Source of the DNA: a virus
Direction: 5' to 3' (one strand)
Virus record (IMG/VR): IMGVR_UViG_3300042392_001901
Span: 1-55,794 of that record
Length of the DNA: 55,794 nucleotides
Shown here: one piece after another, positions 2,675 to 30,115 of the stretch
Layout: each line of letters starts with the position of its first letter
Numbering within the stretch: position 1 is the first letter of the stretch
Made by a program: the position numbers and the translations under genes
Notes under the pieces: model-generated
Seen by the model: only the letters and a program-made list of their open reading frames with translations
What the model was told of the DNA's origin: nothing
Databases searched by the model: none

Positions 2675-3472
2675 ATGGTTTTACGTGCACTGCTATTCAT
2701 TACTAGTCTACTTGTGGCTGGATGTGCCGCATGGTTTTCAGTACTTGGCATTGCTACACTCTTTAGTGGTAGCTATGTTTCAGTGCTCATCATGGCAAGT
2801 GCACTAGAGATTGGCAAACTTGTAGCGACGACCTATTTGCATCACTATTGGGCATACACATCAGCACTCTTAAAAGGCTATCTCGTCACAGCTACACTCA
2901 TACTCATGTGTATAACTTCACTCGGTATTTTTGGTTATTTATCGTCTGCCTATGCTGTAAACTCAATACAATTTTCTAACATTGACTCCCAGGTTGTAGC
3001 TCTTCAAGAACGTAAGAGCGGCATCGACTCTGAAGTCTCACAAATCAACTCACGAATAGAGACACTAAACACTGCACGTCGTTCACAAGAAGAACGCTTG
3101 CCAAAGATGTCTGCGGCAAATGCACGACCAATCTATGCTGACATTGAAAGAACAGCGGCTGAAATGCAAGCACAACGCGAGAGAATAGTTCAACTGCAAG
3201 ACAGCAAGAGAGAGCTTGACACACAAATACAAGAGCTAAAACTCAAGATGTCGGCATCAAAAGACATTGGAACGTTTAAGTTTATTGCCGATCAGTTTAA
3301 TCTGCCGCTCGATACAATCGTAATGGCCTTTATATGCATAATCATTGCTGTGTTTGATCCACTTGCAATTGCACTGCTGCTGTCATACAACAGCACACTT
3401 TCCAAAACACTCATGAAAGACAAGTCAGTTGATGTTTCAAATCGCATCTATGACCTGTCTGACGGCTTATAA
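2675..3472 (+). CDS. Membrane protein with periplasmic/cytoplasmic coiled coil
   Basis: A 265-residue protein. About three hydrophobic segments lie in residues 1-95 (LLFITSLLVAGCAAW, VSVLIMASALEIGK, YLVTATLILMCITSLGIFGYL), then a long charged coiled coil at about 105-200 (QERKSGIDSEVSQINSRIE ...), then another membrane helix near 215-240 (IVMAFICIIIAVFDPLAIALLL). From memory, proteins of this layout recur in marine T4-like phages as unnamed membrane proteins. Its late promoter suggests late expression. The role is unknown; the long rod between membrane anchors could be structural or act in envelope remodelling (inference). Confidence 0.6.
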   Translation: MVLRALLFITSLLVAGCAAWFSVLGIATLFSGSYVSVLIMASALEIGKLVATTYLHHYWAYTSALLKGYLVTATLILMCITSLGIFGYLSSAYAVNSIQFSNIDSQVVALQERKSGIDSEVSQINSRIETLNTARRSQEERLPKMSAANARPIYADIERTAAEMQAQRERIVQLQDSKRELDTQIQELKLKMSASKDIGTFKFIADQFNLPLDTIVMAFICIIIAVFDPLAIALLLSYNSTLSKTLMKDKSVDVSNRIYDLSDGL

Positions 3473-3683: not shown

Positions 3684-3758
3684 GGGGAGTTAGCTCAGCG
3701 ATAGAGCATCTCGTTTACACCGAGTCGGCCGGGGGTTTGAATCCCTCACTCCCCACCA
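3684..3758 (+). tRNA. tRNA-Val (TAC)
   Basis: Acceptor GGGGAGT/ACTCCCC with A and CCA, D stem GCTC/GAGC, anticodon stem TCTCG/CGAGT with loop TTTACAC (TAC), T loop TTTGAAT. Confidence 0.9.
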
Positions 3759-3791
3759 CTTCTCCCCCTGAAAAACAAAATGAACTATAAT

Positions 3792-4520
3792 ATGAAAAAA
3801 CAAACACAAATCGTTAAAGTCGGACTTATTGCAGCACTTGCTGCTCTTAACTATGCCTATGCAGGCCCAATCGAAGACGCTCCTTCAGCATTCACGCCAG
3901 TGACGCTTGAAACTGGCTACTCGTCTGATAAGGTCTGGCGTGGTGCTGATCTAGGTGCAAATGAAGCAAATGCAATCGTCACAACGACAACTGAACTTCC
4001 TGCGGACGTTTCGTTGGCGCTGAGTGCTGACTATGCAAACGCTGAAACAACTGGGAAGGACGAAGCTACTGAGCTCTCTGCAATCTTTTCTAAGAGCGTT
4101 GCTGACTATCTCGTATCTTTGAGCTATACCTGGTATTCGCAAGACTATGCAGGACAGGAAGGACAAGCGCAAGAAGCTGGTTTGACTGTATCACGTGTAG
4201 TTGGTCCAATCGACCTTTCGCTTACGCAATATGTCGGACTTGTTGGTGACAATAACAGCTATAGCGAACTTGCAGCAACATACAGTGATGATTTTGGATC
4301 TTCATTGATGCTTGACTTTCGCGCTGAGCTTGGCTATCTCGCTCAAGAAGGACAGTGTACTCACTTTGAGACCACTGTGTCGACTGACATTCCAGTTGTG
4401 CAAGGCGTGACCGCTGTTCCGTTTGTCTCATACTCACTTGGTCTTGATGACTCGGTTGGTGTGCATTCAGACATGAAGAATCTTTTCTTCGGTGGAATTG
4501 AGTTTAAGAAGACATTCTAA
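3792..4520 (+). CDS. Outer-membrane beta-barrel protein with signal peptide
   Basis: A 242-residue protein. It begins with a classic Sec signal peptide: MKKQ basic start, hydrophobic core, AYA cleavage site before GPIEDAP. The mature part alternates polar and hydrophobic residues in strand-sized runs (VTLETGYSSDKVWRG, VSLALSADYAN, YLVSLSYTWYSQDY, VDLSLTQYVG-like, SLMLDFRAELGYL) and ends in Phe, the usual signal for beta-barrel assembly. The GYSSDKVWRGADLG stretch recalls bacterial outer-membrane proteins with a YVFRG motif. No phage structural family is recognised. It could change host surface traits such as phage re-entry or uptake during infection (inference). An alternative ATG lies at 3780. 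Confidence 0.65.
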   Translation: MKKQTQIVKVGLIAALAALNYAYAGPIEDAPSAFTPVTLETGYSSDKVWRGADLGANEANAIVTTTTELPADVSLALSADYANAETTGKDEATELSAIFSKSVADYLVSLSYTWYSQDYAGQEGQAQEAGLTVSRVVGPIDLSLTQYVGLVGDNNSYSELAATYSDDFGSSLMLDFRAELGYLAQEGQCTHFETTVSTDIPVVQGVTAVPFVSYSLGLDDSVGVHSDMKNLFFGGIEFKKTF

Positions 4521-4542: not shown

Positions 4543-4576
4543 AACGGAGCCTTCTCTATGTTGGCTCCGTTTTTTA
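4543..4576 (+). terminator. Rho-independent terminator
   Basis: ACGGAGCC (4544-4551) pairs with GGCTCCGT (4563-4570), followed by a run of T. It closes the beta-barrel gene and precedes tRNA-Leu. Confidence 0.85.
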
Positions 4577-4579
4577 TTT

Positions 4580-4663
4580 GGGCAAGTGGTGTAATGGTAG
4601 CCACGCGGGTTTTAGAAGCCCGTGCAGTGATGCGTGAGGGTTCAAGTCCCTCCTTGCCCACCA
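4580..4663 (+). tRNA. tRNA-Leu (TAG)
   Basis: Acceptor GGGCAAG/CTTGCCC with A and CCA, anticodon stem CGGGT/GCCCG with loop TTTAGAA (TAG), a long variable arm and T loop TTCAAGT. It starts right after the terminator, so it must be transcribed by read-through or from its own promoter. Confidence 0.88.
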
Positions 4664-5178: not shown

Positions 5179-5748
5179 ATGCAACCCTTTGACAACTATA
5201 AAAATGACTCTCTTGTGAGTGCTGCAGCAACGATTCTGGAGGGCAAGACCTCAGACGGGTGTCTTCAAGAAGCACAGAGCGCAATTATAAAACGCCTATT
5301 AGCAGAAATTGACAATTTAAATAGAAGTCAAATGCAAGAATTTTTACTTGCATTTGCAGATCATATGGACGAGATGACAAAATATGCATCATCACGTGAT
5401 CACAAAGGCAATCCAAGAGGCGTCATTAAAAAAATAAGTGATCACCTCTATGACGCAGCAAGAGCAGCAAGCGGATTAAAGACCGGTGAAAAGTATGGTT
5501 ATAATGAAGGTGTTGAAGATAAAGGTGAGACACTACAGGAATATTACACCGCTAAATTTCCACTTGCTAAAAAGGCAATGGGAGCAGTGCGCAATCTGGA
5601 TGAAGATGAAATGGAAGATTTCTTATTTGCGCTTGATGGATATTTTGACGGAGGAGAAAGTTCTGGTTATAAAGAATCAAGCAACATCTCTGCATTAATC
5701 TACAAGGCAGCACAAATTTGGAAAAATAGAAACGAAAGATATGCATAA
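5179..5748 (+). CDS. Putative internal head protein 2, two helical repeats
   Basis: A 189-residue protein. The N-terminal motif NDSLVSAAATIL (residues 9-20) is followed by LQE at 29-31, the candidate prohead-protease site. The rest contains two copies of a helical repeat, about 36-100 and 120-188. Each has a short helix, a MQEFLLAFADH / MEDFLFALDGY segment, a variable loop with Gly/Ser, and a closing helix rich in Ala (LYDAARAAS / LIYKAAQIWK). The same repeat occurs once in the large protein at 6710 (residues ~508-570). A LQE also precedes the second repeat, so a second cut is possible. The function after delivery is unknown. Confidence 0.55.
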   Translation: MQPFDNYKNDSLVSAAATILEGKTSDGCLQEAQSAIIKRLLAEIDNLNRSQMQEFLLAFADHMDEMTKYASSRDHKGNPRGVIKKISDHLYDAARAASGLKTGEKYGYNEGVEDKGETLQEYYTAKFPLAKKAMGAVRNLDEDEMEDFLFALDGYFDGGESSGYKESSNISALIYKAAQIWKNRNERYA

Positions 5749-6238
5749 AAACCCGCTTATAGAAGCAGCAACAAGAATCCTTCAAGGCAAGCCCGAAGAC
5801 TTACAAGAGTCTTTTATGCGTTTGCCTGGACATGTCATCAACAATGAATTATACACGCTAGGCAAATCATTTCAACAATTTGTTGATTCAATAAAACGTG
5901 GCGATGACTTTGATCCAAAGAAGATCAACTCACTTATAACTGCATTAAATTCCATAAAGTCTTCTGCAAAAACTTTTAAAGATGGAGAAAGTGTTCCTGT
6001 TTCATATCAGTATGGAAACGTAAAGGAAGCTGCCGAACAAGACGCAGGCGAGTATGACGCTGAAGGCAGCATGGCAAAGACTGCTCTTCGTACAATCATT
6101 CGCAACGCGCAAGGTTTACATGACATGCTTGCAGACGACGAAAATTTACCAGAGCACGTTCAAGCAAATCTCGTAAAGGCAGAAGAGTATGTTGTCAGTG
6201 CTCGTGACTATATTGAGAGCACAAAGGAAGCAGAATAA
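5741..6238 (+). CDS. Putative internal head protein 3
   Basis: A 165-residue protein whose start overlaps the end of the previous gene by eight bases. The N-terminal motif NPLIEAATRIL (residues 4-14) is followed by LQE at 21-23. The remainder is charged and mostly helical (IKRGDDFDPKKINSLI..., a long Ala/Glu-rich middle, and a C-terminal helix). It is read as a packaged protein with a cleavable leader by comparison with its neighbours. No known domain is seen. Confidence 0.5.
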   Translation: MHKNPLIEAATRILQGKPEDLQESFMRLPGHVINNELYTLGKSFQQFVDSIKRGDDFDPKKINSLITALNSIKSSAKTFKDGESVPVSYQYGNVKEAAEQDAGEYDAEGSMAKTALRTIIRNAQGLHDMLADDENLPEHVQANLVKAEEYVVSARDYIESTKEAE

Positions 6239-12490: not shown

Positions 12491-12817
12491 GGGTGTGACA
12501 TGGTTTCGACATGACATTTGAAGCAATATATGCAATGCACAGTCTGCACGACTCTAAGTGCAAGAGAAAAACGAAAAAGATACACTAGCTCTCGCGGCAT
12601 AACCGCACCAACGCATCAACTCCGATAACATGCGTTGGTACAGAGTAGGGTCGGATAGTTGTATATCGAAAATATAATAGACTCATCGATTCGAATATTG
12701 ATGCGGGATTGCTCGACAACAATCTAGGTTGTGATTGTCCTAACATCAATCAATAAATTGTAGAAGTATATTGCCGAGAAGTCATGGACTGGAGTTCGAT
12801 CCTCCACACATCCACCA
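12491..12817 (+). ncRNA. ssrA: Transfer-messenger RNA (tmRNA)
   Basis: A 327-base RNA. The 5' end GGGTGTG pairs with CACATCC before A-CCA (one G-T pair). The T arm is TGGAG-TTCGATC-CTCCA, and GGTTTCGACA near the 5' end is the conserved tmRNA D-loop region. An internal reading frame (12558-12602) ends in ALAA plus TAA, and a 10 bp hairpin (12607-12639) follows, as in bacterial tmRNAs. tmRNA with SmpB rescues stalled ribosomes and tags the nascent chain for proteolysis. It may help translate phage mRNA or recycle ribosomes after host mRNA decay. No smpB is in the window, so host SmpB would be used. Confidence 0.9.
12558..12602 (+). CDS. tmRNA tag-peptide reading frame
   Basis: The frame encodes (V)QEKNEKDTLALAA and then TAA. 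An in-frame TAA immediately precedes GTG, so the resume codon is GTG or the following CAA. The C-terminal ALAA is the proteolysis signal of bacterial SsrA tags. Confidence 0.8.
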   Translation: MQEKNEKDTLALAA

Positions 12818-12859: not shown

Positions 12860-13777
12860 ATGACACCACGACTGGGACTAGTTTGCATAAGTGAAAGACT
12901 GACATACCAAAAGATCTCAGCAAAGACGATGACTCGCAAGCAGTTTGTAACTCTTGGTCGTGAGCGTGGGTTGCAAGTACTATCCGAGCGTATACTTCAT
13001 AATTCGCAGCACATCTTGCGTACACTCCAGGCATGCATCGACTCAGGTGCTCGTCACTATCGTGTGTCGAGTTCAATTTTCCCGTTGCTTACTGATCATA
13101 CGCTCGAGTTGCGCTACGACGACCTGCATGGGTTTGATGATATCGCAAGCAACCTTGCGAAGGCTGGTGAATTTGCTCGGCAGCATGACATCACATGCAG
13201 CTCACATCCCGATCAGTTTAATGTCCTATCAAGTTATAACCCTGATGTTGTAGACAAGACTATTCGCGAACTTGACCATCAGTCATATGTGCTTGATATG
13301 ATGGGATGTAAAGCAAACTATAGTTCTCCAATGTGTCTGCATCTCAACAAGAGCCCTGACTTTAAGCGTGAAACTATTGGCGAGTATGTGTCTCGCTTTT
13401 GTGCAAATCTCGCCCGTTGTAGTCGTGGCGTTCGTCATCGACTTGTGTTAGAAAACGAAGACAAGGCATACTGGAATTGCGAGAATCTCTACACACATTT
13501 TGCAGGGCATCTTCCACTCGTCTATGACAATCTTCATGACACGTGCAACCCGTCATGCGACTCGTCTCAAAGCATCTCTCGATTTCGCCAAAGTTGGGGA
13601 AAATATACTCCTGTGTTTCATTGGAGCGAAGGTATTGGCAGCACTCGTAGTCATACTGACTATGCAACCCATCTCCCACATGTAGTCTCTGCAAATCGTG
13701 ACGTCACCTGGGAAGTCGAACTCAAGGCAAAAGACAATGCAATTGCTCATATTCTGAGCACCTTTTTTGCCTCCTAA
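12860..13777 (+). CDS. uvsE: UV-damage endonuclease UvsE (UVDE)
   Basis: A 305-residue TIM-barrel nuclease of full family length. It begins RLGLVCISERL, the usual UVDE start; RISSDLFPL-like HYRVSSSIFPLLT, CSSHPDQFNVLSS, LVLENEDKAYW, PLVYDNLHD and PVFHWSEG contain the conserved metal-binding His, Glu and Asp residues. UVDE nicks DNA 5' to UV photoproducts to start repair. It has its own host-type promoter and is followed by promoter module B. Expression with a very short leader is predicted. Confidence 0.93.
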   Translation: MTPRLGLVCISERLTYQKISAKTMTRKQFVTLGRERGLQVLSERILHNSQHILRTLQACIDSGARHYRVSSSIFPLLTDHTLELRYDDLHGFDDIASNLAKAGEFARQHDITCSSHPDQFNVLSSYNPDVVDKTIRELDHQSYVLDMMGCKANYSSPMCLHLNKSPDFKRETIGEYVSRFCANLARCSRGVRHRLVLENEDKAYWNCENLYTHFAGHLPLVYDNLHDTCNPSCDSSQSISRFRQSWGKYTPVFHWSEGIGSTRSHTDYATHLPHVVSANRDVTWEVELKAKDNAIAHILSTFFAS

Positions 13778-13783
13778 AGGTCT

Positions 13784-13885
13784 GTTTCTCTATACGGGGC
13801 TTAACTTTGGGGACTTTTTTCACTTTTATGAAAAAAGTTGTGTACTTTTGCCGCGGTTTATGCTATAATAACCATGTAAGCAACA
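13784..13885 (+). promoter_or_regulatory. Repeated early promoter module, copy B
   Basis: Starts with 'tttctctatacgggg', then hairpin CTTTTTTCA (13814-13822) / TGAAAAAAG (13829-13837), -35 TGTACT (13841-13846), 17 bp, TATAAT (13864-13869), leader TAACCATGTAAGCAACA (13869-13885). Confidence 0.8.
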
Positions 13886-13898
13886 ATTCGATACCAGA

Positions 13899-15482: not shown

Positions 15483-15564
15483 TTTAACCATAGTACTCTA
15501 TTGTATTCTCATGACTTCACTTGCAATTGGCACACTTATAATTTTTGAAAAATACGACAAATGA
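15475..15564 (+). CDS. 29-residue membrane peptide
   Basis: A tiny ORF that overlaps the preceding gene by eight bases and the GMP reductase start by four (ATGA). It is almost entirely one hydrophobic helix (TIVLYCILMTSLAIGTLIIF). The tight overlaps at both ends support real translation. Confidence 0.45.
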   Translation: MNDLTIVLYCILMTSLAIGTLIIFEKYDK

Positions 15565-16514
15565 AAACTGCATATCAATATAAAGACATATGTTTGCTGC
15601 CTCGCTATAGTAGCCTAAAGACTCGTCAAAGAGCTGAAGTTTCTACAGTATTTTTAGGATCACAATTTAAATTGCCAGTTGTGCCTTCGAATATGGTATG
15701 TGTCATAAACGAATCACATGCAAAATGGCTGAGTGAGCATGGCTATTTCTATGTCATGCATCGTTTCGGTGTCGATAACCTTGAATTTGTTCGCGCTGCC
15801 CAAGGTTGGAAAACAGTCAGCATCAGCGTAGGTGTGCAAGAAGTTGACAAATATCTACTTGAGCAGATCGCAGCAGAAGATTTAAAGTTAGACTATGTCA
15901 CAATCGACATTGCTCATGGTGATAGCATTCTTATGAAAGAGATGTTGAGTCATATTTCTTCGCTGTCTCTTGATACAAAAATTATTGCCGGCAATGTCTG
16001 CACTCCCGAAGGCTATCGCAGGCTTGTTGAATGGGGGGCAGATGCTGTAAAAGTTGGTATTGGCGGTGGAGGTGTGTGCAGCACAAAAAACAAAACTGGC
16101 TTTACTTTTCCAATGTATAGTTGTATCACACTCATTGATCGTGTGCGAGAACTCGATGATCCACCAATAATTGCAGATGGCGGAGTTCGTGAGCATGCCG
16201 ACATTGTAAAATCAATTCACGCCGGAGCAGAGATGGTTATGGTTGGTGGTCTATTTAGTCGATGTATTGATTCACCGGCTGAAATGATTGACGGTCAAAA
16301 AGTTTATTTTGGAAGTGCTTCTCAATACAACAAGGGTGAATATCGAAACGTTGAAGGAGTTAAGCGTGCACTAGATCTTGACACAATGACCTATGCAGAA
16401 AAATTGCTCGAGATAGAACAGGACCTTCAAAGTGCGGTTTCTTACTCCGGTGGAAGAAACTTACTTGATATCCCGAGCGTAGAATCAATGCTCGTTACAA
16501 GTTGGGAGGCATAA
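15561..16514 (+). CDS. guaC: GMP reductase / IMP dehydrogenase-family enzyme
   Basis: A 317-residue TIM-barrel protein without CBS domains, the length of GMP reductase. Signatures: PVVPSNMVCV near residue 38, the catalytic loop KVGIGGGGVCSTKNKTG (active Cys) at about 174-190, IIADGGVREHADIVK and AEMVMVGGLFS for phosphate binding, and a C-terminal YSGGRNL. GMP reductase converts GMP to IMP with NADPH. In a phage this would shift guanine nucleotides from host RNA breakdown towards adenine pools, fitting an AT-rich genome (inference). Reduction rather than oxidation is inferred from length and the loop. Confidence 0.85.
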   Translation: MKTAYQYKDICLLPRYSSLKTRQRAEVSTVFLGSQFKLPVVPSNMVCVINESHAKWLSEHGYFYVMHRFGVDNLEFVRAAQGWKTVSISVGVQEVDKYLLEQIAAEDLKLDYVTIDIAHGDSILMKEMLSHISSLSLDTKIIAGNVCTPEGYRRLVEWGADAVKVGIGGGGVCSTKNKTGFTFPMYSCITLIDRVRELDDPPIIADGGVREHADIVKSIHAGAEMVMVGGLFSRCIDSPAEMIDGQKVYFGSASQYNKGEYRNVEGVKRALDLDTMTYAEKLLEIEQDLQSAVSYSGGRNLLDIPSVESMLVTSWEA

Positions 16515-16789: not shown

Positions 16790-16990
16790 ATGAAAGAACT
16801 ATATAGAATAGTAGAACGTATAGACGTTCCAACTGCTAGAACATACTATGCAATTCAAGAGAAGTTTCTTTGGTTTTGGATCACAGATTTTAGTTATGGA
16901 ATTTGGGCAACAGCAGAAGCCGCAGAAGATATGGTTATAAAACTGATGAAAAACCCAAACAGAATAGTAAAAACATTTTCTTATGAGTGA
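16790..16990 (+). CDS. YRIV-family small protein (copy 1)
   Basis: A 66-residue protein: YRIVERID....RTYYAIQEKFLWFWIT...YGIWATAEAAEDMVIKLMKNP. It is nearly identical to the protein at 29824 and more distantly like those at 18237 and 29012 (shared YRI ... Y.I/VxRK ... WFW core). The family looks like a small beta-sheet plus C-terminal helix. Function unknown; multiple copies suggest recent duplication. Confidence 0.65.
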   Translation: MKELYRIVERIDVPTARTYYAIQEKFLWFWITDFSYGIWATAEAAEDMVIKLMKNPNRIVKTFSYE

Positions 16991-18236: not shown

Positions 18237-18503
18237 ATGCCAAAATACAGAATCGTAAGAGACTATCGCGACAGAAACACAAAACTGTCACATGAAAAAT
18301 ACTATATTCAACGCAAGTCGTTATGGATGTGGAATGACATTGACCCATTTGACGTCGACTCGAGTTTTTACAGAAGCGGTAAAAGATGGGACACGTTTGA
18401 AGAGGCACTCGAGGTATACACGAAGATCGAAGAGATTGAGGCTCTCAAGTGTCGCGGATTAGAGGTTGTGTGGCCAAAACCACGCCCAGAATGGCCTTGC
18501 TGA
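18237..18503 (+). CDS. YRIV-family small protein (copy 2)
   Basis: An 88-residue protein starting MPKYRIVRDYRDR, with YYIQRKSLWMW at the core and a predicted C-terminal helix ending in a Pro-rich tail. It is a diverged member of the family at 16790, 29012 and 29824. It is the last gene before promoter module C. Confidence 0.55.
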   Translation: MPKYRIVRDYRDRNTKLSHEKYYIQRKSLWMWNDIDPFDVDSSFYRSGKRWDTFEEALEVYTKIEEIEALKCRGLEVVWPKPRPEWPC

Positions 18504-18610
18504 GGTCATTTTCTCTATACGGGGACACCGTCCGGGACCTTTTTTCACTTTTATGAAAAAAGTTGTGTACTTTTGTCGCGGTTTATGCTATAATAACCAT
18601 GTAAGCAACA
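18503..18610 (+). promoter_or_regulatory. Repeated early promoter module, copy C
   Basis: 'ttttctctatacgggg', a GC-rich dyad (GGACACCGTCC), the AT hairpin, -35 TGTACT (18566-18571), 17 bp, TATAAT (18589-18594), leader TAACCATGTAAGCAACA (18594-18610). It is very close to copy D. Confidence 0.8.
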
Positions 18611-18622
18611 ATTCGATACCAA

Positions 18623-25690: not shown

Positions 25691-25709
25691 GCTTTTTTAG
25701 GCCTCCAGG

Positions 25710-25817
25710 AGGTCATTTTCTCTATACGGGGACACTGCCCGGGACCTTTTTTCACTTTTTTGAAAAAAGTTGTGTACTTTTGTCGTGGTTTATGCTATAA
25801 TAACCATGTAAGCAACA
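25710..25817 (+). promoter_or_regulatory. Repeated early promoter module, copy D
   Basis: Begins after a CCTCCAGGAGG dyad. 'ttttctctatacgggg', AT hairpin, -35 TGTACT (25773-25778), 17 bp, TATAAT (25796-25801), leader TAACCATGTAAGCAACA (25801-25817); the ATG is at 25820. Confidence 0.8.
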
Positions 25818-25819
25818 AT

Positions 25820-29420: not shown

Positions 29421-29831
29421 ATGAGTGATACACCAGAGACAGACTATGCATACAAAAACCATCCGTGGGATATGCACGACAATATTCCACTTGAATTTGC
29501 CCGCCAACTCGAAAGGGAGCGCGACAGGCTGGCAGAGGAGCTTGATGCCTTGAAGCAGTCCATGCTCGATCTGTCCCACCCAAATATGAAGTTGCTATTG
29601 GAAGAGCGCAACGAAGCTCGGACATCCTCCGTATGCACTCACGGCACAACAACCGCATCCGCTCAAGGGTGGGCGCTCAAGCACGAAGCCGTGACAGAGC
29701 AACGCGACAGGCTGGCGGAGGCTTTACGGATTGTAATGGCAGATTACAGGCTAGATGGTCGTGTGAGTACTGAAGCTGACTTATTAGCCTGCGACGCTCT
29801 CGCCGCCGTGGAAGGAGAAAATAATGAGTAA
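29421..29831 (+). CDS. Coiled-coil protein, MSxTPxTD family
   Basis: A 136-residue protein starting MSDTPETD, followed by PLEFARQLERERDRLAEEL and a segment (LDLSHPNMKLLLEERNEA) almost identical to the gene at 17173. It is notably richer in G and C than its surroundings, hinting at transfer from another genome. It ends with helices and a Cys-Ala segment. Function unknown. Confidence 0.6.
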   Translation: MSDTPETDYAYKNHPWDMHDNIPLEFARQLERERDRLAEELDALKQSMLDLSHPNMKLLLEERNEARTSSVCTHGTTTASAQGWALKHEAVTEQRDRLAEALRIVMADYRLDGRVSTEADLLACDALAAVEGENNE

Positions 29832-30024
29832 ACAATATAGAATTGTAGAACGCATAGACAATCGAACTGCTAGAATATACTATGCAATTCAATTTAAGTT
29901 TTTTTGTTTTTGGTTTACAGAGTATCATTATGGAATTTGGGCGACAGCGGAAGCTGCAGAAGATATGGTTATAAAACTGATGAAAAATCCAAACAGAGTA
30001 GTAAAAACATTTTCTTATGAGTGA
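29824..30024 (+). CDS. YRIV-family small protein (copy 4)
   Basis: A 66-residue protein nearly identical to that at 16790 (shared YGIWATAEAAEDMVIKLMKN end). Its start overlaps the previous gene by eight bases, and AAGGAG lies seven bases upstream. Confidence 0.65.
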   Translation: MSKQYRIVERIDNRTARIYYAIQFKFFCFWFTEYHYGIWATAEAAEDMVIKLMKNPNRVVKTFSYE

Positions 30025-30115
30025 TATGTGGATAGCAATAATTTTAGGCTCACTCGCAATGTTTGCAGTATGCTACATCATTTATAAGGCTAGTGATGAA
30101 GACTTTTGGTATTAA
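30017..30115 (+). CDS. Small membrane peptide (copy 2)
   Basis: A 32-residue peptide (MWIAIILGSLAMFAVCYIIYKAS) paralogous to that at 29285. It overlaps the previous gene by eight bases. Confidence 0.5.
   Translation: MSDMWIAIILGSLAMFAVCYIIYKASDEDFWY

Follow-up and report, generated by a model that had tools for sequence, protein, structure and literature searches.

A predicted outer-membrane barrel protein with remote similarity to TorF putative porins, encoded mostly in tRNA arrays of T4-like phages

Phage-borne porins of the TorF type are already known from GenBank. The T4-like Acinetobacter phage AB1I1M-1, which carries the structural genes gp5 to gp26, encodes a protein of the same kind as the one described here, annotated as a TorF family putative porin (WJJ54678.1). 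Another phage-borne relative of TorF/Gcw_chp (TIGR02001, PF09694) is the Gcw_chp-like exported protein of the Caulobacter Bertelyvirus jumbo phages (CcrC1_gp335, CcrSC_gp344). T4-like phages related to ours, Methylophilales phage Melnitz and pelagimyophages, encode the outer-membrane pore CsgG/CsgF (PMC9004378), and CsgG was detected in Melnitz in our searches. In view of these three examples an outer-membrane protein on a lytic T4-like phage, which the original prediction for the present locus regarded as rare, is less exceptional than supposed.

We analysed such a gene in a viral stretch of 55,794 nucleotides, referred to as the window. The protein and its homologues share with TorF/Gcw_chp a length of about 220-250 amino acids, a signal peptide, the motif S-x-x-x-x-R-G near the mature N-terminus, collinear strands and a terminal F. 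Yet the identity in the profile alignment was only about 16%, and the window family stands apart as a family of its own, so far seen in viral contigs only. In a pairwise BLASTP comparison with the window protein the AB1I1M-1 porin showed no detectable similarity (E = 0.045), and its gene is part of an ordinary gene cluster, whereas the window gene lies in a tRNA array. The Caulobacter genes directly precede those of a PnuC-like nicotinamide riboside transporter and a ribosylnicotinamide kinase, while no PnuC was found in the relatives of the window. CsgG is an oligomeric pore with a fold other than that predicted for the window protein, and none was found in the window or in the related phage genomes G002, G003 and G006. 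What is new is a distinct family, seen in viral contigs only, which is unannotated in every library searched and is kept by several phage lineages.

Outer-membrane signature and probable remote relation to TorF/Gcw_chp

The coordinates of the gene and its local elements are compiled in Table 1. An in-frame ATG is also present at 3780, 12 bases upstream of the assigned start; because it is missing in the homologue L010, the start at 3792 is likelier.

Table 1. Features of the barrel gene and its immediate surroundings (window coordinates)
Feature	Position	Strand	Basis or remark
TorF-like outer-membrane protein gene (putative)	3792..4520	+	242 aa plus stop; ATG to stop exact
Sec signal peptide, residues 1-24	3792..3863	+	sequence; divergent homologues share an A-x-A-type site
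Mature domain, 218 aa, predicted beta-barrel	3864..4517	+	alternation test, TorF/Gcw_chp profile match
Motif YSSDKVWRG	3918..3944	+	aligns with the S-x-Y-x-F-R-G motif of TorF porins
C-terminal strand FFGGIEFKKTF, last residue Phe	4485..4517	+	sequence, conserved
Intrinsic terminator (CGGAGCC, loop, GGCTCCG, T-run)	4545..4575	+	sequence
tRNA-Val(UAC), directly upstream, in the tRNA array holding the barrel gene	3684..3758	+	kept in related phages
tRNA-Leu(UAG), directly downstream	4580..4663	+	kept in several related phages

The precursor starts with MKKQTQIVKVGLIAALAALNYAYA, followed after the predicted cut by GPIEDAPS. A Sec signal peptide with an AYA site had been predicted here, and it was present with a charged start, a hydrophobic core and the A-Y-A cut, NYAYA ending at residue 24. 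Despite the drift of the sequence, the same type of start was found in all distinct homologues whose N-terminus is complete; their cut sites include NAYA, VQA, ATA, VNA, VYA and VTA, each followed by G. The mature part is acidic (K+R minus D+E of about -22), and YSS..(V/M)WRG is present in all complete members. At the other end the precursor closes with NLFFGGIEFKKTF; the terminal Phe of the original prediction was confirmed, and Phe was the last residue in all members, within the motif FFGG(I/V)xFK(K/R)(T/S/A)F. Even members that differ at half of their positions share the A-x-A-type cut and the terminal F.

The alternating strand pattern of the original prediction was borne out by comparing the hydrophobic/polar alternation of the mature window protein with that of shuffled sequences by script (p = 0.008). 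Four homologues gave p = 0.001-0.03, and the E. coli controls OmpW, OmpA barrel and Tsx gave p = 0.010, 0.0007 and 0.004, respectively. The pattern was absent from five cytosolic-type proteins of the window (p = 0.43-0.99). OmpX was borderline with p = 0.066, so the test is indicative rather than sharp. AlphaFold was run twice, on 8 and on 14 sequences, and each time the mean pLDDT was ~34. The second model had ten strands, several with 11 residues in a row, at a confidence too low for them to count as evidence, and Foldseek found no match for it better than E = 0.13.

Searches with the barrel protein in Pfam, PHROGs and PDB sequences yielded no match, nor did tblastn in 50,697 phage records. 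Pfam and PHROGs likewise yielded no match to phage outer-membrane proteins of the Lom/Ail/OmpX type. The window protein had no NCBIfam match either and did not reach the curated cut-offs of TIGR02001 and PF09694. The homologue L012 weakly matched TIGR02001 (TorF family putative porin) with E = 0.002 in two collinear pieces; the best score of any homologue on this model was 17.7 bits versus a cut-off of 47.15. Because the curated cut-offs were not reached, we refer to the family as a probable remote relative of TorF/Gcw_chp and not as a member. Matches to the PefC usher and to A24 peptidase were weak (E of 0.003 or worse) and partial, and were discarded.

For a profile comparison TorF/Gcw_chp genes were fetched from plasmids and phages with a consensus-like bait, which was used for fetching only. 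The resulting alignment, A8, consists of ten real TorF/Gcw_chp genes. Local hhalign of the phage family versus A8 gave a score of 34.9 with E = 1.6e-4 (1.9e-4 with full-length rows), and the alignment paired YSS..VWRG near the N-terminus with S.Y.FRG, as well as the strands after this motif. Run globally, hhalign scored 31, compared with at most 12 across 191 controls (150 column-shuffled, 2 reversed and 39 rotated). Control profiles of OmpW, OMP_b-brl, mixed OMP and porins scored 21.4 or less with E of 0.02 or worse, a conclusion that rests on E. coli OMPs plus OmpW, L134 and L135 rows. Single-sequence OmpX with its signal peptide included reached 22.9 (E = 0.0098) by way of that peptide and the residues that immediately follow, while E. 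coli OmpX versus the mature profile gave 12.2 (E = 0.43). The link to TorF depends on alignment depth and is weaker for smaller TorF alignments: half of the 7-member subsets reached E < 1e-3.

The data suggest that the phage family is probably of TorF-like ancestry. With greater assurance we regard the protein as a very likely outer-membrane barrel, both the fold and the insertion being deduced from sequence and family. Of the predicted phage outer-membrane beta-barrel protein, the assignment to the outer membrane is well supported by the sequence and by the remote TorF/Gcw_chp similarity, while the barrel fold is one that we infer, given models with a pLDDT of ~34.

Carrier phages and distribution of the gene

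The window encodes a gp59 loader, gp32, the C-terminal domain of gp5, a baseplate wedge protein and a baseplate hub/lysozyme. By these T4 core genes the carrier is classed as a T4-like myovirus. For its baseplate protein of the gp6 type the closest match was in Methylophilales phage Melnitz (37%), followed by Pelagibacter phages. The phage genome G002 (173.8 kb) is collinear with most of the window and holds one copy of the barrel gene; since the window runs across its two ends, G002 is probably near complete. Some of the IMG sample numbers suggest that the carrier lineages are probably from freshwater.

In IMG/VR, 23 contigs were found to carry homologues with 48-99% identity, and dN/dS values of 0.08-0.36 indicated purifying selection. 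Therefore a chance open reading frame can be excluded. A paralogous pair within a single phage was at first suggested by contig IMGVR_UViG_3300042502_001732 (loci L003 and L016), but this contig is chimeric. Its positions 505-103540 are 99.98% identical to phage G006 and its positions 103035-133558 are 99.8% identical to window positions 1-30530. The two parts, the second of which makes up most of the remainder, meet in some 500 bp that they have in common. The copies, which are about 70% identical, thus come from different phages.

The barrel gene was located inside a tRNA array in the window lineage and at the loci L013 and L021/L022, and just after tRNA genes in L105. Wherever a gene at least 56% identical to the neighbour at 5741-6238 was found, the barrel gene was there as well (14 of 14 loci). 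The more distant relatives L152-L154 kept part of this neighbour and a tRNA array, and the barrel gene was missing. The barrel gene is thus accessory and, inside its own lineage, stable. In most homologues a hairpin and T-run follow directly 3' of the gene, though the sequence of the hairpin differs. A T4 late promoter was considered and rejected: the TATAAT just 5' of the ATG is unlike the late consensus, and the number of occurrences of the late-promoter word TATAAATA in the window was close to a hand-made estimate from base composition.

Possible roles and origin

The Sec export, the insertion by BAM and the small acidic pore proposed here follow what is generally known of outer-membrane proteins. 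On this model the precursor would be exported by the host Sec system and cleaved after residue 24, and the host BAM machinery would insert the mature protein, a small and acidic beta-barrel, in the outer membrane. The barrel would serve as a diffusion channel by which small solutes, possibly cations or nitrogenous metabolites, enter the infected cell during phage replication. The reading we favor, if tentatively, is thus a small diffusion channel that the phage adds to the outer membrane of the infected host, its pore function, substrate and timing being assumed. Relatives of TorF are found beside a BCCT transporter in Pseudoalteromonas and near an ammonium transporter in Aquabacterium. Because these relatives, and the Caulobacter phage genes mentioned above, adjoin transporters of small solutes, an uptake of small solutes is suggested. 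Next to the barrel gene of the window, genes for transporters or for NAD salvage were not found, and PnuC was not detected in the window phage or its relatives. TorF itself is a putative porin only, a point against the channel reading.

More tentatively still, this T4-like lineage may maintain a family of outer-membrane channels that belongs to phages alone, sits mostly in tRNA arrays and changes the uptake of the infected cell. If so, outer-membrane permeability would be a trait under phage control; metabolic genes are known on phages. Proteins that lytic T4-like phages place in the host outer membrane are seldom recognized because their sequences are unannotated. With the TorF-linked family it can be tested concretely if infecting phages adjust the permeability for nutrients or keep rivals out.

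The main alternative is superinfection exclusion, in which the barrel occupies, masks or displaces an outer-membrane receptor so that rivals cannot adsorb or debris does not deplete the new virions. The location in the outer membrane fits, and envelope proteins of phages that block receptors, such as Llp of T5 and Cor, are well known and serve as precedents. A role in competition would also suit an accessory gene which distant relatives lack while they keep the tRNA array and the neighbour. On the other hand, no similarity to described exclusion families was found in Pfam or PHROGs, and selection was purifying overall with no sign of fast diversification. We consider exclusion conceivable but rather doubtful.

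That the protein is not in the outer membrane at all, but is a secreted beta-rich protein of the periplasm or the virion, is less likely again. The lack of a confident structure would agree with it, while the combination of signal peptide, alternation and C-terminal Phe pattern speaks against it. A hit to a virion protein family had been named as an outcome that would count against the original prediction, and none was found.

A late-acting factor for lysis or envelope remodelling, which would make the outer membrane weaker or stiffer, is a less probable alternative than exclusion. It draws on the G006-type phages, where the homologue directly follows an endolysin-like gene, and on L023, where the end of the upstream gene is similar. 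In the window lineage, however, the gene sits in a tRNA array with a terminator of its own, and barrel porins are not known to act as lysis proteins. This role is therefore improbable for the family.

Returning to the proposed channel, its gene looks like a long-kept one, maintained under purifying selection in phage lineages of differing GC content. The GC3 of the gene was 0.378 in G002, where it ranked 11th among 141 genes, and 0.278 in G006 and thus tracks each phage genome; therefore the gene appears to be long resident and not a recent capture. An ordinary bacterial TorF porin recently acquired from the host is accordingly disfavoured as most improbable, for although the G+C of the gene (0.46) exceeds that of the window (0.38), its GC3 follows the composition of each phage, and a direct search of GTDB genomes, plasmids and phages, which in bacterial genomes covered close matches only, found no relative that would point to a donor lineage. 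The base composition suggests that genes of this kind persist in phage lineages.

Other elements of the window and of related tRNA arrays

Near the barrel gene the window encodes a conserved membrane protein (2675-3472) in which a long stretch resembles a coiled coil; its gene is kept in L013 and L021 (70%) and was not found in G006. In L010 (6780-7680) the tRNA-Leu(UAG), which is intact in the window, is split near the anticodon loop by an inserted open reading frame, possibly a homing endonuclease, and a tail of the tRNA remains downstream. Group I introns were seen in the tRNA arrays of related phages at L012 2753-2942, L012 7614-7808 and L013 3817-4011, the second apparently within a tRNA gene.

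Most of the gene starts inspected in the window had no clear Shine-Dalgarno sequence upstream, and translation signals may be unusual. Related stretches of ~100-210 bp are scattered over the window at 216-318, 13762-13887, 16797-16990, 18502-18612, 25692-25819 and 29816-30026; they are 85-96% alike where they cross-match and are likely sites of misassembly. A tmRNA gene that ARAGORN missed was identified at 12491-12817 by an Rfam match (84 bits). Finally, the window carries phage-borne genes for a UvdE-type UV endonuclease (12860-13777) and for a protein of the IMP dehydrogenase/GMP reductase type (15561-16514).
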